Shown piece by piece: positions 46,213-58,464 of a stretch of 64,000 nt of DNA; position 1 is the first letter of the stretch, and each line of letters opens with the position of its first letter. The notes below the pieces were generated by a model. It was not told the origin of the DNA, ran no database searches, and worked only from the letters and a program-made list of their open reading frames with translations. Position numbers and translations under genes: made by a program. This DNA is from Geobacteraceae bacterium. GTDB lineage: Bacteria > Desulfobacterota > Desulfuromonadia > Desulfuromonadales > BM103. The stretch spans positions 62,001-126,000 of the forward strand of contig JAHEDT010000003.1 in NCBI GenBank assembly GCA_024641085.1, given 5' to 3'.

Positions 46213-47349
46213 TTAATGCGGTTCGGAAAACTGCTGCTGAATCTGTTCGATTTCACCGGGGCACTCAATCAGGGCATCGACACATTGCCTGTCGAGCTTG
46301 TCGATCGACAAAAGCTGCAGCAAGGCAAAAGCATGCGCATTGGACCAAGGCAGCTTGTATGGTCGCCTGGTGGTCAATGCATCGAAGATATCGCTCACGG
46401 CAACGATGCGCGCCTCCAGGGTGATCTCCTGGCCGTTCATGCCATGGGGATAGCCGCTGCCATCCATCGCTTCATGATGCAGTTCGGCAATATGTCTCAG
46501 ACAATCGATATAGGGTATCTGTTCAAAACCGAAATTTCTGATCAGGTCATCGACGATCTGGCGGCCTAAAACAGTATGAGTATTCATGATGGTGCGTTCT
46601 GCCCGGGTCAGCCGGGCAGGTTTCTGCAAAATCCGGTCTGGGATGCCGATCTTGCCGACATCGTGCAGCGGGGCGAAAAGTGCGATCTGCTCGATCTGTT
46701 CATCATCAAGATGCTCAAGTCCTCTTCTGACCATCGACCTGGCGATCAAGCGCGAATAACGTGACATGCGCTCCAGGTGTGTGCCGGTTTCCAGATCGTG
46801 TTTCTGCACCATGTTGACCGACGTCCGCATCGCTGCCACCAGCGCCCGCGTGACTGCTAGCTCGTTCAGGATCATCTCGGCCAGCAGGTGGGTGAAAAGT
46901 TCAACCTGCTCCAGAATGCGTTCGCGAAAATAACGATTGTGAAACGAGTTGAAAAATATGAAGCCGGCCAGTTCCTTATTCTGGTAAATCGGATGGGTGT
47001 AGCTTGATGCGAAGCCGTGTCCGACAATCGCCTGGGAATGCGTCGAGACGTGGTGCTGATAAATTCTCAGGTCGTTGACGATTCGCGGCGACCTGTTCCT
47101 GGCGACCTCCCACAGAACCGATTCGGCGGCCAGGACTGTTTCGTAATTTTTAAGTGGACTTTCCGCAACAGGGGCGGCAATGAAGGTCTTTAACTTACGC
47201 GCCTGGTTGTCATAGAGGGCGATACTGACCCGGTCGACCCCCGGGCAGCTTTTTTTCAGGGTTTCGTGAACGAAAGTCAGTTTCGCCTGGTAGGTGGAGG
47301 CGTCCGCAAATCCCGCCAGAGGGTCTTCACAGAAGACAACCTGTTCCAT
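46213..47349 (-). CDS. GAF-HD-GYP protein, c-di-GMP phosphodiesterase
   Basis: The 378-residue protein has a GAF-like domain (about 10-160) and an HD-GYP domain (about 180-355). The metal and catalytic residues are in TGTHLERMSRYS, LFAPLHDVGKIGIPD, MNTHTVLG and AELHHEAMDGSGYPHG. It breaks c-di-GMP to pGpG/GMP. ATG 47349 has GGAGGAATC upstream. It may oppose the GGDEF protein at 3531. Confidence 0.92.
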   Translation of the reverse strand: MEQVVFCEDPLAGFADASTYQAKLTFVHETLKKSCPGVDRVSIALYDNQARKLKTFIAAPVAESPLKNYETVLAAESVLWEVARNRSPRIVNDLRIYQHHVSTHSQAIVGHGFASSYTHPIYQNKELAGFIFFNSFHNRYFRERILEQVELFTHLLAEMILNELAVTRALVAAMRTSVNMVQKHDLETGTHLERMSRYSRLIARSMVRRGLEHLDDEQIEQIALFAPLHDVGKIGIPDRILQKPARLTRAERTIMNTHTVLGRQIVDDLIRNFGFEQIPYIDCLRHIAELHHEAMDGSGYPHGMNGQEITLEARIVAVSDIFDALTTRRPYKLPWSNAHAFALLQLLSIDKLDRQCVDALIECPGEIEQIQQQFSEPH

Positions 47350-47490
47350 GATTCCTCCGTGGAAAAGTTAACAACCACTTACATTCTAACTCTTTAAAAA
47401 GTGATTGCAACGACAAGCGGACAGAGCCTTTGACGGCACTATTGCGATGCGCTACTCTGCAGATTGATCATCCTATAAAGGATAACTTTC

Positions 47491-48201
47491 ATGATGGAAA
47501 CCAAGTCTGAACATTGCATGGTGTGTGGTGAACCCCTCGATTATCGCGAGCAGGGCGAAGCGGTCTGCTGTATCCATTGTGGACAACAGTCGACCAGCGC
47601 TATCGTCTGTCCGGCCGGGCATTATGTCTGTGACGCCTGCCACAGCGATTTCCCTTTGGCGCGACTTGCGGTTATGGCTCGGCAAGTCGCCGGTTGTGCA
47701 CCGGAAGACATCCTCGAGGAACTCATCGCCCTCCCCGACCTGCCCATGCATGGCCCGGAACACCACGCCATGGCAGGACTCGCCCTCTTGCTGGCATGTG
47801 AAAAGACCGGTACAGACTTACCGGAAAGTTTTATCGAAGAAACAATCAGACGCTGCCTACAGATTCCTGGCGGGACCTGTGGCTATCATGGCGCGTGTGG
47901 CGGGGCGGTCTCCCTTGGCGTATCCGTCAGCCTTCTGACCGGGGCAACTCCGGTGACCGGACTGGCCCGCAGCATGGCCCACCGGGCGACGGCTCTGGCC
48001 CTTTTGAACTGCGCTGACGACGAAGCCCGCTGCTGCAAGCGCGCACTGAGGAAAACCGTTTCCGCCGGCCGTGAGTTTTTTGCCAAAGAACTCGGTATCG
48101 AATTCCCGCGGCCAATTGCTCACCAATTCTGCGTGGACATACCCCGCAATCGCGAGTGCGTCAGGCAGCACTGCCCCTACTTTCACGCCGGCACCCAGTA
48201 G
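47491..48201 (+). CDS. DUF5714-family Cys-rich protein
   Basis: The 236-residue protein is Cys-rich: CMVCGEPLDYREQGEAVCCIHCGQ, then CPAGHYVCDACHSDF, GTCGYHGACGGAVSLG, and C-terminal CVRQHCPYFHAG. Zinc or Fe-S binding is likely. DUF5714 occurs in anaerobes beside radical SAM or metalloenzyme genes; its function is unknown. The start is 47491 (or ATG 47494). It is convergent with ald, 20 bases away, and no partner gene is adjacent. Confidence 0.75.
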   Translation: MMETKSEHCMVCGEPLDYREQGEAVCCIHCGQQSTSAIVCPAGHYVCDACHSDFPLARLAVMARQVAGCAPEDILEELIALPDLPMHGPEHHAMAGLALLLACEKTGTDLPESFIEETIRRCLQIPGGTCGYHGACGGAVSLGVSVSLLTGATPVTGLARSMAHRATALALLNCADDEARCCKRALRKTVSAGREFFAKELGIEFPRPIAHQFCVDIPRNRECVRQHCPYFHAGTQ

Positions 48202-48221
48202 CTCCCGCCTGACCTGGATCG

Positions 48222-49340
48222 CTACGCCCTAAAAATATCTTCCACCGGCGTGTGCTCAAGGCCGAACGCTTCAGCGACTCCCGCGTAAGTGACTTTGCCG
48301 ACCACGACGTTCAACCCTTCCCTGATGCCATGATGTTCCCGGGCAGCACCACGCCATCCACTGTTGGCTATTTTGACCGCATAAGGCAGCGTCGCGTTGG
48401 TCAGGGCAACGGTCGATGTCAGGGGAACCGCACCTGGCATATTGGCAACACAGTAATGCACGACACCGTCAACTTCAAAGGTCGGCTCGCTATGGGTGGT
48501 TGCCCGGGACGTTTCAAAGCAGCCGCCCTGGTCGATGGCCACATCTACCAGTACCGCACCAGGCTTCATGGTCTTCAACATTTCGCGAGTCACCAGTTTG
48601 GGGGCTTTAGCACCATGTAGCAGCACAGCCCCGATCACCACATCGGCCTCCTGGACCAGTTCACGGACCATGGCCGGAGAAGACATGATCGGAAAGCAGT
48701 TTTTCGGCATGACTTCCGCAAGATAACGAAGCCTCTCCAGGCTGGTGTCGAGGATATAGACCTTGGCACCCAGTCCGCAGGCCATCTGCGCGGCATGCGT
48801 ACCGACTGTCCCGCCACCAATGACCAGAACCGTTGCCGGAGGCACCCCCGGAACTCCGCCAAGCAGGATACCACGCCCACCCTGGGTCCGCTCTGCATAC
48901 TTTGCTGCCTCCTGGGCAGCCATACGTCCAGCAACCTCGCTCATTGGCGTCAGCAGGGGCAAACTGCCATCTGCGCCAACAATCGTTTCATAAGCGATGC
49001 AAACAGCCCCCCTGTCGATCATCGCCCGGGTCAACTCTTCAGAGGCGGCAAAATGGAAGTAAGTAAAGACGATCTGGCCTTTACGGATCAGGGGATACTC
49101 CGAGGGCTGTGGTTCCTTGACATGCATGACCATCTCTGAGCGGTCGTAGATCTCCTTTGGCGTGGCGACGATCTTAGCTCCGGCCTCAAGATAAGCAGAG
49201 TCACTGAAGCCGCTGCCAACCCCGGCCAGGGTCTCGACAAGAATATCATGGCCATGTTTACGCATGATTTCAACACCGGCAGGGGTCATGCAAACCCGAT
49301 TTTCAGCAACCTTGATCTCTTTCAGTATGCCAATGACCAT
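48222..49340 (-). CDS. ald: Alanine dehydrogenase
   Basis: The 372-residue enzyme converts alanine and NAD to pyruvate, ammonium and NADH, or the reverse. The start MVIGILKEIKVAENRVCMTPAG and the NAD domain (GGVPGVPPATVLVIGGGTVG) are family-typical. The active-site segments VKEPQPSEYP and AIDQGGCFETSRATTHSEPTF are intact. AAAGGAGG-type site lies upstream of ATG 49340. It is divergent from an Lrp-family gene with a dyad between them. Confidence 0.97.
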   Translation of the reverse strand: MVIGILKEIKVAENRVCMTPAGVEIMRKHGHDILVETLAGVGSGFSDSAYLEAGAKIVATPKEIYDRSEMVMHVKEPQPSEYPLIRKGQIVFTYFHFAASEELTRAMIDRGAVCIAYETIVGADGSLPLLTPMSEVAGRMAAQEAAKYAERTQGGRGILLGGVPGVPPATVLVIGGGTVGTHAAQMACGLGAKVYILDTSLERLRYLAEVMPKNCFPIMSSPAMVRELVQEADVVIGAVLLHGAKAPKLVTREMLKTMKPGAVLVDVAIDQGGCFETSRATTHSEPTFEVDGVVHYCVANMPGAVPLTSTVALTNATLPYAVKIANSGWRGAAREHHGIREGLNVVVGKVTYAGVAEAFGLEHTPVEDIFRA

Positions 49341-49414
49341 AAGAGCACCTCCTTTGAGAAACGCTTGTCCCGTTTATATGTTTATTTCTGAAGTCTACCA
49401 GCAACATGGGGAAA

Positions 49415-49435
49415 TTACCTTGCAAACTAAGGTAA
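49415..49435. promoter_or_regulatory. Candidate Lrp-type operator between ald and lrp-like gene
   Basis: TTACCTT and AAGGTAA form an exact inverted repeat with a 7-base centre (GCAAACT). It lies between the divergent ald (start 49340) and Lrp-type gene (start 49490), 75 and 55 bases away. Alanine-responsive Lrp proteins bind dyads of this type. Confidence 0.5.
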
Positions 49436-49489
49436 AAAAACCTACTTATTAATAGATAATTCCACATAATAATCGATATGGAGCAGATC

Positions 49490-49960
49490 ATGCCATACAC
49501 CCAATTGGACGCCATAGATCATTCTATCCTGAATAAGTTACAGAAGAACGGCCGCCTGTCAAACGTGCAGCTTGCCGCAGAAGTTGGCCTGTCGGAATCG
49601 GCATGCCTGAGACGGGTCAAAATTCTCGAGGAAAGCGGGGTTATTGATCGTTACGTCATGCTGATCAGTCAGACCGCTATAGGGAAACCGGACAACGTCT
49701 TTGTCAGAGTCACGCTGGATGGCCAGCAGCGGGAAAAACTGGCCGCGTTTGAAACCGACATCACTAGGGTTTCGGAGGTTATGGAATGCTACCTGATGTC
49801 GGGAGATTTCGACTATCTGCTGCGAGTCATAACCAGAGACAATACTGATTATGTCCGTATTCACAACAAGCTCACCAGCCTGCCGGGAGTCATGCGCGTC
49901 CAGTCTTCTTTTGCACTGCGCACGGTTCTCGACAAAACCGAAATGCCGTTGGAAATTTGA
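49490..49960 (+). CDS. Lrp/AsnC-family transcriptional regulator
   Basis: The 156-residue regulator has an N-terminal winged helix-turn-helix (LDAIDHSILNKLQKNGRLSN, VGLSESACLRRVKILE) and a C-terminal RAM domain (about 65-145, VMECYLMSGDFDYLLRV). It should sense amino acids. The ATG at 49490 has GGAG 6 bases upstream. It is divergent from ald, so autoregulation and control of ald by alanine or a related amino acid are likely. Confidence 0.92.
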   Translation: MPYTQLDAIDHSILNKLQKNGRLSNVQLAAEVGLSESACLRRVKILEESGVIDRYVMLISQTAIGKPDNVFVRVTLDGQQREKLAAFETDITRVSEVMECYLMSGDFDYLLRVITRDNTDYVRIHNKLTSLPGVMRVQSSFALRTVLDKTEMPLEI

Positions 49961-49992
49961 CCTGAACGAAGGGGCTTGGAGCGGAACCCGGA

Positions 49993-50295
49993 TCAGCGCA
50001 CACTGCCGCACGCCGGGCAATAAGGCCAGTTGTCACGTAGAGCGGAGTGGCAACTGTTGCAGCAGTTGGCGTCGGGGGTTGCTTTTTTGCGACTTCTGAG
50101 CATGAACAGGATAATGCCGGCCGCCAGGTTGGCAGCGATGATCACCCAGCCGATTGGGGGAACCCGGAAGAAATCATTGATAACGCAGCGCCCGCAACAG
50201 AGCAGCCATACGTTGCATGCCACGATTACCAGGATCGCCGCCAGACAAAAGCAGGCAAACCAGGAGTATTTATACTTTCTGAATGCCAGCCTCAT
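49993..50295 (-). CDS. Small membrane protein with C-terminal zinc ribbon
   Basis: The 100-residue product has two hydrophobic segments (SWFACFCLAAILVIVACNVW and PIGWVIIAANLAAGIILFML) and a C-terminal zinc ribbon (CCNSCHSALRDNWPYCPACGSVR). It starts at ATG 50295, overlapping the preceding stop by four bases (ATGA), so it is translationally coupled. I do not know a family name. It is the last gene of the six-gene metal cluster and may act with the preceding zinc-ribbon gene. Confidence 0.65.
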   Translation of the reverse strand: MRLAFRKYKYSWFACFCLAAILVIVACNVWLLCCGRCVINDFFRVPPIGWVIIAANLAAGIILFMLRSRKKATPDANCCNSCHSALRDNWPYCPACGSVR

Positions 50296-50549
50296 GCAGG
50301 GGCCTTTTGATTCTGGTGCCTGCACCACGGGCAGTACTTGACCCACCGATCATGCACCTTGCAGCAGGCAGGACAAACTTCTCGCAACACTGACCGGCAT
50401 TTAGGGCAGACCAGCCAACCTGACTCCACCCGCTCCGAGCAATCCGGACACTCCCCCGTCAGCGGGGAAAATGGCGGTACCGGCTTGTCAATTTCCAAGC
50501 AGATAAAGTAGAAAATGACCGAAAGACTGATGATGAAGAGTAGGAACAT
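50292..50549 (-). CDS. Small membrane protein with double zinc ribbon
   Basis: The 85-residue product has an N-terminal membrane helix (MFLLFIISLSVIFYFICLEI) and two C-x2-C pairs sets: CPDCSERVESGWLVCPKC and CPACCKVHDRWVKYCPWC. It lies 6 bases after the ABC ATPase and overlaps the next gene, so all three are coupled. The family is unknown to me. A membrane metal-binding or assembly role is inference from context. Confidence 0.65.
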   Translation of the reverse strand: MFLLFIISLSVIFYFICLEIDKPVPPFSPLTGECPDCSERVESGWLVCPKCRSVLREVCPACCKVHDRWVKYCPWCRHQNQKAPA

Positions 50550-50555
50550 ACCGCC

Positions 50556-51263
50556 TCACATGGCCTGTGAAAGGCCGCAATCAGAACTCCCTGTATCCTT
50601 TTCTATCAAACCGTCGCGCAGGTAAAGGGTCCGATCGAACCACTCCAGGTTGTCCCGGTTGTGTGTGACCATGACAATAGTCTGACCGCCACGGTGCAGT
50701 TCGGCCAACAGCTCCATCACCTGTTGGCTGGTTGCCGTATCAAGGCTCCCGGTCGGTTCGTCCGCCAGGAGCAACGGCGGGCTGTTGACCAGTGCCCTGG
50801 CGATGGCCACGCGCTCCTGTTCCCCACCGGAGAGCTGCTGAGGTAAATGCAGCATACGATCCGGCAGGCCGACCCTCTCCAGCATGGCAGAGGCACGCCG
50901 ACGTTTTTCCACAGCAGAGAATTTGCTCACGGCGAGCGGCAGCATGACATTTTCCAGGGCGTTCAGATAAGGGATCAGGTTGTGCGACTGAAAAATGAAG
51001 CCGAGGTACTCACGACGGAAATCCGCCTGCTGCTCCGTCGCCAGGCCGTAGATGTCAATTTCATCGATCGTGACCTTGCCAGAGGTTGGCCGAGTCAAGG
51101 CGCCCAGCACGCTCAGCAGGGTACTTTTGCCACTCCCTGATGGGCCCATGACGCCGAGAAATGCGCCCTCTTTGATCGACAGGCTCAGATGGTCGAGAGC
51201 GGTCACACAGTCAGCGCCATTGATGTAGCGTTTGGTTACCTGTTGCAGATTAATCAGAGTCAT
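50556..51263 (-). CDS. ABC transporter ATPase (LolD/MacB type)
   Basis: The 235-residue ATPase has Walker [11 protein letters not shown]-loop [13 protein letters not shown], signature [15 protein letters not shown], Walker [13 protein letters not shown] and the switch His in MVTHNRD. It matches the LolD/MacB group that pairs with FtsX-type permeases. ATG 51263 is 13 bases past the permease stop. It should power the permease encoded just upstream, which lacks its own ATPase. Confidence 0.93.
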
Positions 51264-51276
51264 ATCGAGTCCGGGG

Positions 51277-52434
51277 TTAGAGCGCCCTGAGGGCTTCGCT
51301 CGGTTCGAGGCGGCTGGCACGCAGCGCCGGTTGCAGCGCGGCCATCAGGCCGACGATCAGTGCCGCAGCCACAGCAGTTAGAGCAAGGGTCGGGTTCCAG
51401 TGCCAGATGGCCTTGCCGCCATCGAGCAGCGGCAGGGTCACCAGGGTCGCGAGGACACCGGCCAGGTACCCCATCACTCCGGCCAGAACGCTGACGATGG
51501 CGGCTTCCATCAGCACCAGGTGCAGCACATGTCGGCGACGGTAACCGATCGCCCTGAAGATACCGATCTCCCGGGTTCTTTCGCTGATCGCACCCATCAT
51601 GGTGACAAAGACCAGCAGGGCACCGATAATGACCACCGTCACGGCAACCCCCCAGGCAAAAAGACGGAACTGGTCCAGGGCATGCATGCGGGTCTTCACA
51701 ACCTGCTGGACCGCCTGAACATCGGTTCCGGGGAGGACCTGCTGCAGCTGGTTGACCATATCATCGACGGGGCAGTCATGGCAGAGAGCGGCGATCTCGA
51801 CCATACTGACCTTGCCTTCCTTGCCAAGTATCGCCTGGGCCGCCGGCAGCGGGCTGATCAACAGCTGGTCGTCCTGGGAGCCGGTCTTGGCCAGCAGGCC
51901 GACCACAGTGAAGGCCTGGCCGTTGAGTTGCAGGGTGTCGCCCATCGCCAGGCCAAAACGTTTGACAAGTGCATCGCCGACCAGTAGTTCAGCTCCCTGC
52001 TTGACAGGACGCCCGGCGATCGACCACCAGCGTTTCAATTTGAACTCCGCGACGGGATCGACCCCCATCATCATGACCCGCTGTCCCTGTACTTCGACGG
52101 TGCCAAGCACCTTGGGCCCGATGGTGGCAACGTTGCGCCGATTGGGGATGTCGTCTATGTTGACCAGACTGGCCTGTTCGATCTCACGGGCCACCAGGTT
52201 GACGCCACCGAGCTGGACCCCGCCATAGTTCAAATCGAGTTGATCACTACGGGGCGTGATAATGATGTTGGCCCCGAAGTTCTCGAGTTCGTTTTGGGCG
52301 CGCATGCTCAGGGCATCGGTCAGTGACAGCAAGGTGACCACCGTCGCGACGCCGATCATCAGGCCCACGACCAGAAAGATCGCCCGCCCCTTGCGCCGTC
52401 TCAGATTATGTAAAACGATATGCTCAAGTCGCAC
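51277..52434 (-). CDS. FtsX/MacB-type ABC permease
   Basis: The 385-residue permease has one N-terminal helix (GRAIFLVVGLMIGVATVVTLLSL), a long periplasmic MacB core domain (about 50-260), and three C-terminal helices (LFAWGVAVTVVIIGALLVFVTMM; IVSVLAGVMGYLAGVLATLVT; LALTAVAAALIVGLMAALQPALRA). GTG 52434 is chosen because GAGGATC lies 8 bases upstream. It follows DUF2318 by 10 bases. Permeases beside DUF2318 proteins occur in p19/FTR1 iron systems. Confidence 0.9.
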   Translation of the reverse strand: MRLEHIVLHNLRRRKGRAIFLVVGLMIGVATVVTLLSLTDALSMRAQNELENFGANIIITPRSDQLDLNYGGVQLGGVNLVAREIEQASLVNIDDIPNRRNVATIGPKVLGTVEVQGQRVMMMGVDPVAEFKLKRWWSIAGRPVKQGAELLVGDALVKRFGLAMGDTLQLNGQAFTVVGLLAKTGSQDDQLLISPLPAAQAILGKEGKVSMVEIAALCHDCPVDDMVNQLQQVLPGTDVQAVQQVVKTRMHALDQFRLFAWGVAVTVVIIGALLVFVTMMGAISERTREIGIFRAIGYRRRHVLHLVLMEAAIVSVLAGVMGYLAGVLATLVTLPLLDGGKAIWHWNPTLALTAVAAALIVGLMAALQPALRASRLEPSEALRAL

Positions 52435-52444
52435 GTGCAGATCC

Positions 52445-52969
52445 TCAATTGATCGCGGCCTTGAAATAGCCGGCACCCTGTTCGATATCATTCACGGCGA
52501 TCACGAGCTTGTCGCTGGCCAGTTGACGATGCAGCGGCGCCGGGTTGCACCCGCCCTTGACCACGTTGACCAGGTCGGTGCGGAAATGCTGGCCGCAGTT
52601 GTTACAGACCATGTCGTTGCCTTCCTGGCGGTAGCCCTTGCGCTCACGGTAGCAGACGTCACATGTGTCGAAGGCCGCCCGGATCACACCGTCCGTGCTG
52701 CGTACGACGAAGAAATCGACCGATCCGGATTGGCCCTGGAAACGATAGAACTTGGCTTTGCCGTCAGCAAATTCGCTTGACGCAAACTGGATCGTGCCAT
52801 CCTGACCGGCCTGAACCAGGGCGTGTCCGCCTAGGGACTTTTGACCGAACAGAAACCAGCCGCCTCCGGCAATAACCACCAGGGCCAGCACGACAAGGGG
52901 AACCAGCAGCTTTTTCCCGGCGGTTTTTTTCGTATTGAACTGCTCTCGCTTGGCATCACGTTCTGACAT
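52445..52969 (-). CDS. DUF2318 Cys-rich membrane protein
   Basis: The 174-residue protein has an N-terminal helix (LLVPLVVLALVVIAGGGWFLF) and a C-terminal domain with five cysteines: C103, C106 (FDTCDVCYRERKG), C122, C125 (VCNNCGQHF) and C141 (GGCNP). That is the DUF2318 (FtrD-like) pattern, thought to bind Fe-S or metal and take part in redox during iron uptake. It is 44 bases after the HMA fusion and 10 before the permease, in the metal-cluster operon. Confidence 0.9.
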   Translation of the reverse strand: MSERDAKREQFNTKKTAGKKLLVPLVVLALVVIAGGGWFLFGQKSLGGHALVQAGQDGTIQFASSEFADGKAKFYRFQGQSGSVDFFVVRSTDGVIRAAFDTCDVCYRERKGYRQEGNDMVCNNCGQHFRTDLVNVVKGGCNPAPLHRQLASDKLVIAVNDIEQGAGYFKAAIN

Positions 52970-53013
52970 TGCTCTTTCTCCTTTGTTTTACACGGCTTTT
53001 GAAACCGGTGATT

Positions 53014-53871
53014 TCAGCTGTTACAGCAGCCGCCACATCCGCCGCTGCCCTGATTGAGTGATTTGATTCGCGGATCGAAAATAATGACTTCCGTATTTTT
53101 CTGCAGCCCGTCGTACCAGCTCTGCAGCTTGGCCCGACGCTCCCGGGGATCGCTGCTTCCCGCATAGACATGATCCTCGATATTGCGATTGATGATCATG
53201 TCTTCACGCAGGCGCTCACGAAAATTATCCATGCTGCCATAGCGCTCCGTAACGACCCGTTCAAGCTCCTGGTGTGACTGGCGTAACTCATCCAACCGGG
53301 CATCGACCTCGCCGGTCTGAATCACCACTTGGTTCTGCTCGGCGGCAGCAAGCAGCAGTTCACGCTGCAGGACATCCTGCCAGACAGCCTTCCATACCTG
53401 GTCAACCTGCCCTGCAGCAGCACCACTGGAACGCTGCCGGACAAGTTCTTCAAAATCGCTGCGCGCAAGGAGACGGTCTCCCACCTGAGCCAGGTACTGC
53501 TGGCCCAACTGTGACTGGCGTTGCTGCAGTGCGGCGTATTCCCTGGCATCGAGTTCGAGCTTCAGGGTGGCGGGATAACCGGCGCCGCTTATCGCCTCCG
53601 CAATTGTTCTACTGTCGATTGCGGCGGGGTCGTAAGTGACGCGGCCGCGGCTACTGGTCAGATTGACCTCGACGGCACCGACGCCATCAAGCTTTGATAA
53701 AGCGTTTTCGATATTGCCGACACAGGAGCCGCAGGTCATCTTTTCGATCTGGTACTCGGCCAATGCAGCATTGGCCAGAGTGGTCCCTGATGGATAGAAC
53801 AACCAGACCAAGGGGACCAGGGCAATAAGCACCAGAAAGATTGACAGGTAAAGCTTCGGGCGTTTCATCAT
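53014..53871 (-). CDS. HMA-domain protein fused to a SurA-N-like region
   Basis: The 285-residue protein has an N-terminal membrane helix (about 6-28), a heavy-metal-associated domain with C47-x-x-C50 (KMTCGSCVGNIENAL), then a helical region (about 115-235) resembling the SurA N-terminal chaperone (SDFEELVRQRSSGAAAGQVD, VIQTGEVDARLDEL). It ends in a Cys tail, GGCGGCC. HMA domains carry Cu(I), Zn or similar. The combination is unusual and suggests metal capture or loading in the envelope. ATG 53871 has GAGGAAG upstream. It is the first gene of the cluster. Confidence 0.8.
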   Translation of the reverse strand: MMKRPKLYLSIFLVLIALVPLVWLFYPSGTTLANAALAEYQIEKMTCGSCVGNIENALSKLDGVGAVEVNLTSSRGRVTYDPAAIDSRTIAEAISGAGYPATLKLELDAREYAALQQRQSQLGQQYLAQVGDRLLARSDFEELVRQRSSGAAAGQVDQVWKAVWQDVLQRELLLAAAEQNQVVIQTGEVDARLDELRQSHQELERVVTERYGSMDNFRERLREDMIINRNIEDHVYAGSSDPRERRAKLQSWYDGLQKNTEVIIFDPRIKSLNQGSGGCGGCCNS

Positions 53872-54217
53872 CGGCTTCCTCAATAAATGGAGAGTTGCTG
53901 GGGACATAGCAGAGGGACAATGTCAGGTTACTAAATCAACTTCCATGCCAAGTATTAAAAAACCTTCCAATACCCTAAAAACATACACTTTACGAACAAA
54001 TCCAGTGACGTATAGAAAACCATCAGGCCGATTTTTGTAGGATATTGCACAGGCAGAAGCGGATTATTCTTCATCTCTGGACGTTTTTTCCTGCAGATCA
54101 TGACTGCTCAATGCGTGCGTGGAATTGTCCCGGCGCGCCTATCCGCCAGTTGTTGACAGACAAAAGGCCCCAACGGAAACCGATGGGGCCTATAAAGTCG
54201 TTCATGCGGGTCACTTG
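53872..54217. other. Intergenic region upstream of the metal cluster
   Basis: No gene seen. It is AT-rich (about 53930-54010) and holds the cluster's promoter, not identified by eye, and the M24 peptidase terminator at 54161-54191. Confidence 0.4.
54161..54191 (-). terminator. Terminator of the M24 peptidase gene
   Basis: An 8-bp stem (AGGCCCCA with TGGGGCCT) is followed on the minus strand by TTTTGTC. It lies 27 bases past the stop. Confidence 0.75.
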
Positions 54218-55408
54218 CTATACGACGATCAGCTCCTGGCTCGAAAAGGTCAGATGTTTGAGACCATCCTCTGCAACCCAGAAGGTGTTTTCGACACCAA
54301 CTGCACCCAGGCCTGGAAAGACAGCCTTGGGTTCGAAGGCAAACGTCATGTTCTCCTGCAACAGGTATTCGTTAAAACCTTTGGCAATAAAGGGATATTC
54401 GTCCAGCTCCACACCGGTACCATGCCCAACAAAAGAGACCTGGGCGCCTTTGGAACCCATGAAGTTCTCCCGGTAGCCCATCTCGCAGGCCAGTTCGAGA
54501 CACTCATTGTACAACCCGCCCCAACTCGCGCCAGGCGTTGCCGACCGTTTGGCGTGTTCCTGGACCACCAGCATGTCGGCATAGGCTTTCACCAGCTTAT
54601 CCGGTAGTTCTCCAAGACTGAACATGCGGGTCTGATCAACTATGTAGCCGTCAAAAACACCTGATAAATCGACAACAATCGGTTCATGCCTGCGAATCTT
54701 TTTGAAGCTCGCTCCTTGCGGAAAAGAGGGGTTGAGGCCAAGGCCGCCCAATGGGGTGTCCGAATAGGTTGGCACCGCACTGTCGGTTCCGGAGAAAACG
54801 TGTCCGTAAAAAAGCTCGTTATTGAAACCGCGCATGCGGACCAGTCCTTGGTGACCAGCCTTCCTGGCAACAAATTCAAGCTCGGCGGCCAGTTCAAGGT
54901 CGGTCATCCCTTCCCGGAGGACTTCCGGCACCCGTTTGCAGACTTTTTCGACAATCAGAGCAGCATCTTTCATGATGTTGATTTCGTACCCTGACTTGAT
55001 CGCCCTTACATTACGGATCAGAGGGGTGGCATCGTTGACGGTTTCCGCCCCGAGCCCTGCCTGGAACCTGTTCATGACCGTTACCGGGACAACGTCGAGT
55101 TCCATGCCGACTGCTTTCGGTACTGTATAGCCGTAATCGACCAGCACACTGGGGATGTCGCGAGGGCTCCTGAACGGGACAACCTCCTTGAGACCCGACT
55201 CCATACGGGCCCGCGCATAGTCCTTGCGCACTAGGTACAGGGCCTCGCCTTCTACTGGCACGTAAAGCACACCTTGCTGGATGGCTCCTGTGAAGTAAAA
55301 CAAGTCTGCGTTCTGCACGATGAGAGTCGCTTCCAGGCTGTGGATAGCCATCTCATTTTGCAGCCTTTGTATGCGACTCTTGAGCTCAACGGCAGGGGTG
55401 ATCCGCAT
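54218..55408 (-). CDS. M24-family Xaa-Pro peptidase
   Basis: The 396-residue enzyme has the creatinase-type N-terminal domain (about 1-150) and the pita-bread catalytic domain (about 155-390). The metal ligands are in VVDLSGVFDGYIVDQTRMF (two Asp), VGHGTGVELDEYP (His), FEPKAVFPG (Glu) and GVENTFWV (Glu). It cleaves dipeptides or peptides with a proline in second position. ATG 55408 has AAGGAG 7 bases upstream. It is monocistronic. Confidence 0.92.
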   Translation of the reverse strand: MRITPAVELKSRIQRLQNEMAIHSLEATLIVQNADLFYFTGAIQQGVLYVPVEGEALYLVRKDYARARMESGLKEVVPFRSPRDIPSVLVDYGYTVPKAVGMELDVVPVTVMNRFQAGLGAETVNDATPLIRNVRAIKSGYEINIMKDAALIVEKVCKRVPEVLREGMTDLELAAELEFVARKAGHQGLVRMRGFNNELFYGHVFSGTDSAVPTYSDTPLGGLGLNPSFPQGASFKKIRRHEPIVVDLSGVFDGYIVDQTRMFSLGELPDKLVKAYADMLVVQEHAKRSATPGASWGGLYNECLELACEMGYRENFMGSKGAQVSFVGHGTGVELDEYPFIAKGFNEYLLQENMTFAFEPKAVFPGLGAVGVENTFWVAEDGLKHLTFSSQELIVV

Positions 55409-55861
55409 TTTCCGTCTCCTTTGCAACACCTGCGCAACGCCTGTGACACAGGTCGAAACTAAACTTTAAGGGCCAAGCAAAAGCTATTGATTTACAAGGG
55501 ACAATTCGCAGGGCCAAGATCTTGGAAACATTCCCTCCGGACTATCCGGAAAAGCGTAGCCAGACGGATAAAAGTTTAATAACATACTGTTATAAAAGAG
55601 TTTTTAAATACCACACTGGCAAAAGCAAGGCAATCAAATAGCAGGGCAACCGGTACGATTATCCTGACGGCCATCTCTTTTAAAATCAATGTATTCGAGT
55701 CGATGAATATTTAAACGACCAGATCCGGTCATGATTTATTTCTGTGCAGAATGCTAAAAATGTAGACTTGGCAAGTGCTTTAGCTATTGCTACTGGTCCT
55801 TTCCACAAAGCTATCCACAAACAGCTGTGGACGAGCGATGATCCCAGAGCATGCTCAACCC
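55409..55861. other. Intergenic region between M24 peptidase and HAO-like genes
   Basis: No gene is seen. It is AT-rich with scattered repeats. CTATCCACA (55810-55818) and a TCCACA/TGTGGA dyad resemble a DnaA box, but only one copy is present. Confidence 0.4.
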
Positions 55862-55892
55862 AAAAAAACCGGCCGGGCAATTGCCCGGCCGG
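55862..55892 (-). terminator. Terminator of the HAO-like gene
   Basis: A perfect palindrome at 55869-55892 (two 12-base arms beginning CCGGCCGGGCAA) is followed on the minus strand by seven T. It lies 23 bases past the stop. Confidence 0.9.
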
Positions 55893-55914
55893 ATGTAGCA
55901 GACAATAGCAGACG

Positions 55915-57243
55915 TTACTTCACATCCTGCTGATAGCGCTTCTGGTAATAGGCCTTCATCTCCTCGACACGCTTGGGATCAAAGCCCTTGGTATACCACT
56001 CGTGCTCTTTACGGCCATCAATGTATTTGGCGATGATCTCTTCGTACACTTCCGGTTTACCGGCCTTCTCGCAGGCCTCTTTCGACTGCGGCAGAAGTTC
56101 CGTATAGAAGTGTTTGGCGACGTCGTAGATGCCATGCCACCAGGCATAATCCGGGCCGCTCATGGCGGCACCATGACGGGCACGACGACCTTCATGATGC
56201 CAGAGCTCCCAGTAGGTCCAATCGATTTCATCGTCGAAATTACCCTTGGAAATGACCCCTTTCTCCATCAGCAGGTCACGGATCTCTTTAGCCGGGATGG
56301 CAAACTTGTCATTGTACATATCCACGAAGCTGTCTAGCTGGTTGTAGAAACCTTCCACAAAGGGAGCGCCGTGACATGCGGAGCAGACATCTTGCATGTC
56401 CTCAAGCTTCTTCTCCCAACCCTCGGTACGCTTGGAAATCGGTGCGCGCAGGTTCCAGGACAACCGGGTCCCGACATCATGGGTCACGGGCTGGTTGACG
56501 GTGGCACTCATGTGGCAGGTGGCACAGGTCGGGGCATCGTAGTAATCTTCACCGGCGACCCACTTCGGCTTATCCATATTCAGATCGTCTTCAAAGGCCC
56601 GGTAAAGGATGCCGTGCTTGGACTCTTCGTAAACCTCTTTCTGTGGATGGTCAGGGCCGAGATGACACTTGCCGCAGGTTTCAGGCTTGCGCGCCTGTTC
56701 CTTGCTGAAGCGATGACGGGTGTGGCATGCCGAGCAGGTCCCCTTGGAACCGTCCGGGTTGACGCGGCCTATTCCGGTGTTGGGCCAGGTGTTGGTATCG
56801 AGCGAGCCATCAGCTTTGACCTTGACGATGGAACCGTGGCACTGTCGGCAACCGACAGCAACGGCCGGCTCGCCACCGATCGTCTGGCCAAGGATGCCGT
56901 CCTGGGTATTCAGGATGTCGCCCGCCTTGGCATGATGGCTGGCTTCCTGCTCCGTAGTTTCCTTGGGGTGACACTGCCCGCAGTCGCGGGGCGAAACGAT
57001 GATCGCGATCGAAAAACCATTGTGATCAAAAGCATCGGCATCGTCCTTTTCTGCTTTGTGGCACTCATAGCAGCCGACCCCGGCATTCCAGTGCGCACTG
57101 TCTTCCCACTGACTGACGATTCCCGGCATGGCCGCGTGACAGCCAAGACATTCCTGGGTCTCCACAGAAAGACGATCCGTCGCAGCCAGGCTTGCTCCTG
57201 TCATCAGTAGAAGCAGCCCTGCCATCAGAAAACCTCTCCACAT
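55915..57243 (-). CDS. Octaheme c-type cytochrome, hydroxylamine oxidoreductase-like
   Basis: The 442-residue secreted protein has a signal peptide (MWRGFLMAGLLLLMTGASLA) and eight CxxCH motifs: CLGCH, CYECH, CGQCH, CRQCH, CSACH, CGKCH, CATCH, CSACH. The C-terminal WELWHHEGRRARHGAAMSGPDYAWWHG segment is the HAO-family signature. Relatives in anaerobes reduce nitrite or hydroxylamine to ammonium rather than oxidise. Whether the P460-type Tyr cross-link exists cannot be told. GGAGG lies 7 bases before ATG 57243; another start at 57258 is possible. A palindrome at 57421 suggests HcpR/FNR-type control. Confidence 0.93.
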   Translation of the reverse strand: MWRGFLMAGLLLLMTGASLAATDRLSVETQECLGCHAAMPGIVSQWEDSAHWNAGVGCYECHKAEKDDADAFDHNGFSIAIIVSPRDCGQCHPKETTEQEASHHAKAGDILNTQDGILGQTIGGEPAVAVGCRQCHGSIVKVKADGSLDTNTWPNTGIGRVNPDGSKGTCSACHTRHRFSKEQARKPETCGKCHLGPDHPQKEVYEESKHGILYRAFEDDLNMDKPKWVAGEDYYDAPTCATCHMSATVNQPVTHDVGTRLSWNLRAPISKRTEGWEKKLEDMQDVCSACHGAPFVEGFYNQLDSFVDMYNDKFAIPAKEIRDLLMEKGVISKGNFDDEIDWTYWELWHHEGRRARHGAAMSGPDYAWWHGIYDVAKHFYTELLPQSKEACEKAGKPEVYEEIIAKYIDGRKEHEWYTKGFDPKRVEEMKAYYQKRYQQDVK

Positions 57244-57690
57244 AAATTGACCTCCCATTCCTCTGACCTCCTCAATGAAATTATGGCCGCAAAGGACCGC
57301 TAGCGATTGACCCGTCAGTAACGGCAACGAGCATGCGAAACATTTAAAATTACTAAGCAGGGTTAAAAGATATATTAAATGAGAATTTTCTCAACAATAT
57401 GGGATCTGCCAAGCAGAATGTTTGACTCAGGTCAAATTCCGGACAGAAAAGCCTTTAAAATCACAGCTTGAAAAAATTACTAAAAATTTGGATAAATTCC
57501 GCGCCTTGGGAAGACCTCGCAAATGCAGGCAAAAGATGATACTCAGGAGTGGGCTCTGACCGGATGATTCTGAAACATCGACGACGAATCTGCGTCTCAG
57601 CAGACAAATCTGGGGAAAAGATTCAGGGCGCTTGCCCTTAACAGACTTCGACTCTATACTGCGTCTTCAATGACCTGAGGAGAGAATGCA
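57244..57690. other. Divergent control region of HAO-like and ZIP genes
   Basis: An AT-rich region (about 57340-57410) holds the HAO-like promoter (-10 candidate TATTGT on the minus strand, 57394-57399) and the HcpR/FNR-like palindrome at 57421. The ZIP promoter lies toward 57600-57660; it is not clear. No gene was found. Confidence 0.5.
57421..57436 (-). promoter_or_regulatory. HcpR/FNR-like palindrome upstream of the HAO-like gene
   Basis: TTTGACTCAGGTCAAA has perfect TTTGAC/GTCAAA arms. It differs at one base from the TTTGACC-NN-GGTCAAA pattern reported for HcpR in Desulfuromonas relatives. Its centre is 41.5 bases upstream of a start predicted from the TATTGT box at 57394-57399, the class II activator position. 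HcpR controls hydroxylamine/NO stress genes such as hcp. Confidence 0.65.
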
Positions 57691-58464
57691 ATGTCTGAAC
57701 AATGGTGGCAGGTACTCTTTGCCGGCAGTTTTGCGGGGGCGGCAACTTTTGCCGGAATGTTCATGGTTCTGGCCAGAGAGAGTTGGAGCCGCCGCTATTC
57801 TGCAGCCCTGGTGTCTTTTTCGGCAGGGGTCCTGCTCGGCGTCGGCGTCCTCCATATCCTGCCGGAATCGATGGAACTGAACTCCAGTGCTCCGCTGTTC
57901 ATTCTGCTCGCTTTCGTCCTCTTCTATTTCTTTGAACACCACCTCTTGATCCACGCCGGCCACGAAGAACAGCACCATATCAATCTGGAAGTTGCCGATT
58001 GCCATGATGAAGGCTGCCTTCACCCTCACCCGATGGGAATGATGGCTTTCGTCGGCATGGGACTCCACTCACTGATTGACGGGGTCATCATCGGTACCGG
58101 CTTTGAAGTCAGTCATGACATGGGGATACTGGCGGCCCTGGGCGTCATCGCCCATGAAGTCCCGGAAGGAATCGCCATGATCGCCATCCTGCTCCATTAT
58201 GGCTGGGAGCGCAGAAAAGCTGTGCAGCTGACCTCCTTCGTCGCCCTGGCGACCCCCTTTGCAGCCGTCCTGACCTTTGCCCTGGTCAGCAACGTATCCA
58301 AGCCGCTGCTTGGCGCCCTGCTTGCCGGAGCGGGAGGGTCATTCATTTACATCGCCGCGTCAGATCTGATTCCGGAATCCCATCGCAGCCGGGGCTTATC
58401 GGCCACCTTGGCGCTTTGCTGCGGCATCCTGATAGCCTGGCTGGCTGGTCGCCTGGCTCATTAG
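57691..58464 (+). CDS. ZIP-family metal transporter
   Basis: The 257-residue protein has eight predicted helices and a His-rich loop between helices 3 and 4 (HHLLIHAGHEEQHH, then HDEGCLHPHP). The metal-transport motifs are MGLHSLIDGVIIG and IAHEVPEGIAMI. It imports zinc or related divalent metal. AGGAG lies upstream of ATG 57691. It is divergent from the HAO-like gene, and no metal regulator is adjacent. Confidence 0.92.
   Translation: MSEQWWQVLFAGSFAGAATFAGMFMVLARESWSRRYSAALVSFSAGVLLGVGVLHILPESMELNSSAPLFILLAFVLFYFFEHHLLIHAGHEEQHHINLEVADCHDEGCLHPHPMGMMAFVGMGLHSLIDGVIIGTGFEVSHDMGILAALGVIAHEVPEGIAMIAILLHYGWERRKAVQLTSFVALATPFAAVLTFALVSNVSKPLLGALLAGAGGSFIYIAASDLIPESHRSRGLSATLALCCGILIAWLAGRLAH

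Follow-up and report, generated by a model that had tools for sequence, protein, structure and literature searches.

In the 64,000-nucleotide stretch of Geobacteraceae DNA analysed here (hereafter the window), six genes, designated A to F, follow one another on the reverse strand, with an operator-like element and a sigma-54-like promoter ahead of gene A (Table 1). Gene starts were fixed by comparison with relatives, which placed the start of C at 52434, that of D at 51263 and that of F at 50295; after this correction, the intergenic gaps from A to F were 44, 10, 13, 6 and ‒4 bases. The original prediction had read this tight spacing as a single operon and had named the domains of the products. 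Order and gaps of the six open reading frames were reproduced, and the domain calls were recovered by Pfam and NCBIfam, with the SurA part of A staying below threshold. An Rfam scan of positions 47000-57500 gave no match above the gathering scores. Scans for sigma-70 promoters and terminators gave no excess over shuffled sequence.

Table 1. Genes and putative control sequences of the operon, in window coordinates
Feature	Position	Strand	Length	Description
Two-part operator-like element, GAATAATC-N10-TGTNNAATATNNNNCA	54036..54069	(-)		Dyad at 54036-54051
Sigma-54-like promoter, TTGGCATGGAAGTTGAT	53935..53951	(-)		GG at -24 fits; -12 is GA, not GC
Gene A	53014-53871	(-)	285 aa	Signal/anchor, HMA, SurA-core-like region and C-terminal Cys tail
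Gene B	52445-52969	(-)	174 aa	Membrane-anchored DUF2318/FtrD-like domain
Gene C	51277-52434	(-)	385 aa	FtsX/MacB-type permease; GTG start
Gene D	50556-51263	(-)	235 aa	LolD/MacB-type ABC ATPase (Pfam, NCBIfam)
Gene E	50292-50549	(-)	85 aa	Membrane protein with two zinc ribbons (Pfam DZR)
Gene F	49993-50295	(-)	100 aa	Two-TM protein with one zinc ribbon (weak Pfam)

The product of gene A contains an HMA domain (Pfam, 3.2e-18) with the motif MTCGSC, of which the cysteines are C47 and C50, and ends in a GGCGGCC tail; in the alignments, the cysteines of both the CxxC and the tail were conserved. In Pfam, the SurA-like region gave only a weak, sub-threshold SurA_N match (SurA_N_3, 0.0013), and a PPIase (PpiC/rotamase) domain was absent. 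The AlphaFold2 model of A resembled SurA cores (8pzv_F, TMt 0.64, E 1.1e-4) and also copper HMA domains in Foldseek. Pfam, the conserved cysteines and the model agree with the earlier description of A as an HMA domain joined to a SurA-N-like region and a cysteine tail. Beyond the order to which the window belongs, the protein is about 130–170 aa long and consists of a signal/anchor, HMA and Cys tail. The SurA-like part, absent there, is mostly confined to the window's order, and the combination of HMA and Cys tail is general. A miniature A of about 48–77 aa, which keeps the anchor and the Cys tail and has lost HMA, was observed at loci L086, L102, L119, L126 and L079.

Gene B encodes an FtrD-like/DUF2318 protein (Pfam, 1.1e-30), for which a PDB sequence search found no convincing relative. 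Its structural model showed a Rieske fold: all matches listed by Foldseek and VIA-align were Rieske or Rieske-like, with a best Z of 9.5 across 102 residues to Rieske proteins. In the alignment, the cysteines of B are C103/C106/C122/C125 and C141. Compared with Rieske ferredoxins, B shares the predicted fold, but the ligands C-x-H/C-x2-H are swapped for C-x2-C/C-x2-C, and a fifth Cys, in GGCNP, is invariant. The spacing between the two CxxC pairs was x15 in 106 of 107 DUF2318 sequences; x13 occurred only in the Fet-type locus L081 and in E. coli, and is also the spacing reported for C. jejuni (PMC6083913). Based on the model, we propose that DUF2318 adopts a Rieske fold in which the site is all-Cys, a fold that could be equally compatible with electron transfer.

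Permease C matched FtsX (4.6e-20) and MacB_PCD (8.3e-19) in Pfam, and its solved relatives are MacB and LolC. ATPase D is an ABC ATPase nearest to LolD (1.9e-67), below the LolD cut-off. The features of the MacB/LolCDE type were all found, namely, an FtsX C-terminal domain, a MacB-like periplasmic domain and a LolD/MacB-type ATPase, and ABC-driven mechanotransmission is plausible by analogy with this type of pair. The periplasmic (MacB_PCD) region of C carries a CxxCP motif (C237/C240 in the numbering of the 404-aa open reading frame), which was present in 88/88 Cu-type permeases of the class and 30/30 permeases of the phylum, and missing from the E. coli Fet permeases and L081. The system has the FtsX fold, periplasmic domain and ATPase in common with MacB, LolCDE and FtsEX (type VII ABC), but differs from them in its conserved periplasmic CxxCP and its thiol-rich metal partners.

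The last two genes encode the zinc-ribbon proteins. E has a double zinc ribbon (Pfam, 1e-6), and its eight Cys were invariant within the order in an alignment of 39. For F, Pfam gave a weak single zinc ribbon, and an alignment of 33 revealed that a Cys following the first TM is invariant (C54 in the numbering of the 117-aa open reading frame).

A genome scan for relatives of the operon yielded loci L002–L011. All six genes occurred in the same order in L003–L009, and together, though truncated where the contigs end, in L002 and L011, indicating that the six-gene set is not due to chance. Within the window's order, 30 of the 37 loci had the zinc-ribbon genes, against 0/60 across the rest of the class; judged by this distribution, they are accessories restricted to that order. 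The original prediction had placed the zinc-ribbon genes and the SurA fusion beside DUF2318 in one operon. The six genes do stay together in close relatives, but the zinc-ribbon genes are limited to the order and the fusion mostly so, and the two zinc-ribbon proteins that end the operon here are not part of the core. This core, HMA–DUF2318–FtsX–ATPase, recurs throughout the class Desulfuromonadia, in which PF10080 was found in 164 of 244 genomes; 97 DUF2318 neighbourhoods from these were examined. The permease branch was detected in 76 of 345 phylum genomes (permease profile, E ≤ 1e-60), and 30 phylum permease neighbourhoods included DUF2318 in 26 cases (tblastn) and CusA in 11.

Some loci depart from this arrangement. 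L010 lacks B, C and D and keeps E, F and an apparently disrupted A; genome G065 (L228), with no DUF2318 match, has the same A fragments and retains the operator. Gene loss may be in progress in both. At L045 and L046, which belong to the family of the window, the version present is that of the sister group, with a short HMA and no zinc-ribbon genes, suggesting horizontal transfer. In genus g62 (L074, L075 and others), histidine kinase, HMA and DUF2318 genes occur without the ABC pair, and in L074 and L075 they are followed by multiheme-cytochrome-like genes.

A recurrent neighbour of the core was a copper pump. At 30 of 41 sister-group loci (14/18 genera), TolC, adaptor and CusA genes lay no more than about 10 kb from the core; in the window's order, this was so at 6 of 37 loci (6/27 genera). 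L109 and the Fet-type L081 were omitted from these counts. By chance, an adjacent CusA is expected in about 1% (given about 1.8 genes above the TIGR00914 cut-off in a genome of some 3.5 Mb), and we claim no formal P value since the loci are related. The position of the pump varies between genera, being upstream, downstream or divergent from the core. Every adjacent CusA that was long enough to judge kept the equivalents of E. coli CusA M391, M486, M573, M623 and M672, the methionine triad included. L109 was rejected as a CusA-linked locus, as its RND gene shares only 24% identity with CusA and does not have the triad. On plasmid pPRO1 of Pelobacter propionicus, a single cluster holds a CsoR-like regulator, a P-type ATPase, HMA, DUF2318, FtsX and ATPase genes, a two-component system, TolC, an adaptor and CusA. 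An E. coli CusF query gave no match in the fetched stretches; CusF has been noted as missing in G. sulfurreducens (PMC7726332).

Two alternative copper-related roles were considered. The module could feed periplasmic copper to cuproenzymes such as the cbb3 oxidase instead of serving efflux, as L082 might suggest, in which DUF2318–FtsX–ATPase adjoins, by eye, cbb3-maturation-like genes (CcoI-type ATPase, CcoH/TauE-like); with efflux genes as the recurrent neighbours and regulon mates, we consider such delivery improbable. The membership of the permease and ATPase in the MacB/LolCD group would also fit the MacB-like export of a small thiol or metallophore taking copper out. This is very improbable, considering that neither a biosynthetic gene nor a separate MacA-like adaptor was seen next to the operon in the window and that the adaptor and TolC found elsewhere accompany CusA.

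DUF2318, FtsX-type and LolD-type genes are likewise united in one operon in the Fet system (FetMP-FetABCDEF of C. jejuni, and an E. coli plasmid copy, L084), which raises the possibility of iron acquisition. However, the operon described here is without FTR1 and P19, has an additional HMA protein and Cus-type regulation, and in both the window and the other Cu-type loci a single CxxCP permease stands in place of the two different FtsX-type permeases of Fet. The DUF2318 protein is single-TM, with the x15 Cys spacing. The absence of p19 and FTR1 had been pointed out from the window and extends further: FTR1 (PF03239) had no match anywhere in the genome of the window, FTR1/P19 accompanied 0/78 Cu-type core loci, and in a tblastn search of the fetched neighbourhoods E. 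coli P19 matched only L081, a true Fet cluster. Because of the missing FTR1/P19, the single permease, the Cys spacing and the regulon, membership in the Fet iron system was rejected, and an iron-acquisition role appears extremely improbable.

The control region ties the operon to the same pump. With zero mismatches, GAATAATC-N10-TGTNNAATATNNNNCA occurred at two sites in the genome, one ahead of this operon and the other ahead of cusCBA, which lies on a different contig; no further site came closer than three mismatches. In 21 genomes of the family, we found 18 copies of the element (at most one mismatch), 11 before the HMA gene and 7 before cusC, and the backwards control gave 0 copies in the same genomes. 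The dyad TGTNNAATATNNNACA had two exact sites in the genome, one at this operon and one 45 bases before a histidine kinase gene. This histidine kinase and the sigma-54 activator encoded by the next gene are 45% and 58% identical, respectively, to their counterparts in the copper cluster of pPRO1. The sigma-54-like element is kept in relatives 99–100 bases downstream of the dyad, and similar sites (threshold of at least 10/13 positions) were found ahead of the HMA gene at 69 of 76 loci and ahead of many cusC genes. We limit the label to 'sigma-54-like', as the ‒12 GC is usually GA or GT. On these sequence data, membership of the operon in the Cus regulon is well supported, and the sigma-54 activator presumably binds GAATAATC-N10-TGTNNAATATNNNNCA. 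At L219 (6135-11884), the dyad-bearing kinase/sigma-54 regulator pair is followed by HtrA-like protease, thioesterase-like, TlpA-like and CcdA-like genes.

Since the element is shared with cusCBA, the operon is tied to copper efflux even where the genes lie apart, and the common control suggests a probable role in preparing periplasmic copper or passing it on, and not in iron uptake. The original prediction had left the metal as Cu or Fe; the metal system stands, and the operator shared with cusCBA together with the CusA neighbours narrows it to Cu/Ag. Taken together, we judge with moderate confidence that the operon encodes an ATP-driven, thiol-based envelope module that handles Cu(I)/Ag(I) within the CusCBA regulon and is a sibling of the iron Fet cluster. 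Counted against this interpretation are the HMA-less loci that retain the Cys tail, the g62 arrangement without ABC genes, and the lack of a nearby pump in about one-quarter of the sister-group loci and in most of the window's order.

If the operon does handle copper, the histidine kinase and sigma-54 response regulator, homologues of a pair lying next to such clusters in the sister group, probably switch it on together with cusCBA. The HMA protein, periplasmic or anchored, would bind Cu(I) via CGSC and the Cys tail, standing in for the missing CusF, and the anchored DUF2318 protein, with its predicted all-Cys Rieske-fold site, and the permease CxxC would provide further thiolate relay points. 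Copper would then move among these four sites. Driven by cytoplasmic ATP, the MacB/LolCD-type pair may move its periplasmic domain, such that copper is released or passed towards CusB/CusA, or the thiols are reset; the ABC pair would not itself transport copper across the membrane. The SurA-like part may accommodate a client protein, and the two zinc-ribbon membrane proteins would be lineage-specific accessories. Copper binding, the CusF-like role, the direction of transfer and the ATP-driven hand-off are what we infer from the genes and their context. A more specific form of this mechanism is tentative: the MacB-type ABC system with its own CxxC and the all-Cys Rieske-fold protein might strip Cu(I)/Ag(I) mechanically from the HMA chaperone and load CusCBA, replacing CusF in this phylum.

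The strongest rival, ahead of delivery, ligand export and iron uptake, is an electron-transfer or thiol-repair role of the Rieske-fold protein, in which Fe-S DUF2318, the ABC pair and HMA-SurA keep periplasmic thiols or proteins reduced and folded under copper stress, copper being the inducer and not the cargo. The Rieske fold of B and the SurA-like region of A are in line with repair, as are the HtrA-like protease and TlpA/CcdA-like genes after the dyad-bearing two-component system and the TlpA-like genes near several loci. We nevertheless consider repair unlikely, given that the copper-chaperone HMA motif and Cys tail are conserved and that the SurA part is absent in most of the class.

Many bacteria of the phylum have CusCBA and no CusF in the examined stretches, and the operon is a good candidate for the missing loading or preparing step, which would be ATP-powered. 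Compared with CusCFBA, with which it shares the regulon and often the locus, the HMA protein may fill the role of CusF, but without the CusF fold; the ABC pair and DUF2318, which E. coli cus does not have, are additions. The NosDFY–NosL system, in which an ABC transporter is presumed to work on a copper partner in the periplasm, has a permease of a different family and serves maturation instead of efflux. A 2018 survey suggested that DUF2318 is confined to iron uptake clusters (PMC6083913); contrary to this, the present loci indicate that it is not so restricted. In C. jejuni, each of fetA-D is required in low iron, and the role of FetBCD is unclear (PMC10783030); the proposed all-Cys Rieske fold of DUF2318 offers a testable idea of the roles of FetA and FetBCD in iron uptake. 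If the proposed hand-over is true, DUF2318–FtsX–LolD would be a general envelope engine for metal handover, serving iron in the Fet system and copper in the present one. In the literature covered, with subscription papers mostly outside its scope and a prior description possible, no copper-type DUF2318 system was found, in line with the original view that no such system is described, and the six genes are apparently an undescribed envelope machine.

Zinc was considered as the metal because the operon encodes zinc ribbons and lies near a ZIP-like gene, and was rejected, as conservation of the ribbons does not extend beyond the window's order. The ZIP-like membrane transporter gene, recognized by eye at 57691-58464 (+), lies about 4 kb upstream of the operon, and its synteny with the operon is kept in L003 and L010. 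Downstream (47491-48201, 48222-49960) are a Cys-rich protein, an alanine-dehydrogenase-like gene and an Lrp/AsnC-like regulator, a block kept in L005; the Cys-rich protein is common to L005 and L064. In L006, L008, L011 and L043, the second zinc-ribbon gene (ZR2) is followed by a small Cys-rich protein of about 150–200 aa and then by ResB/CcsA-like cytochrome c biogenesis genes.
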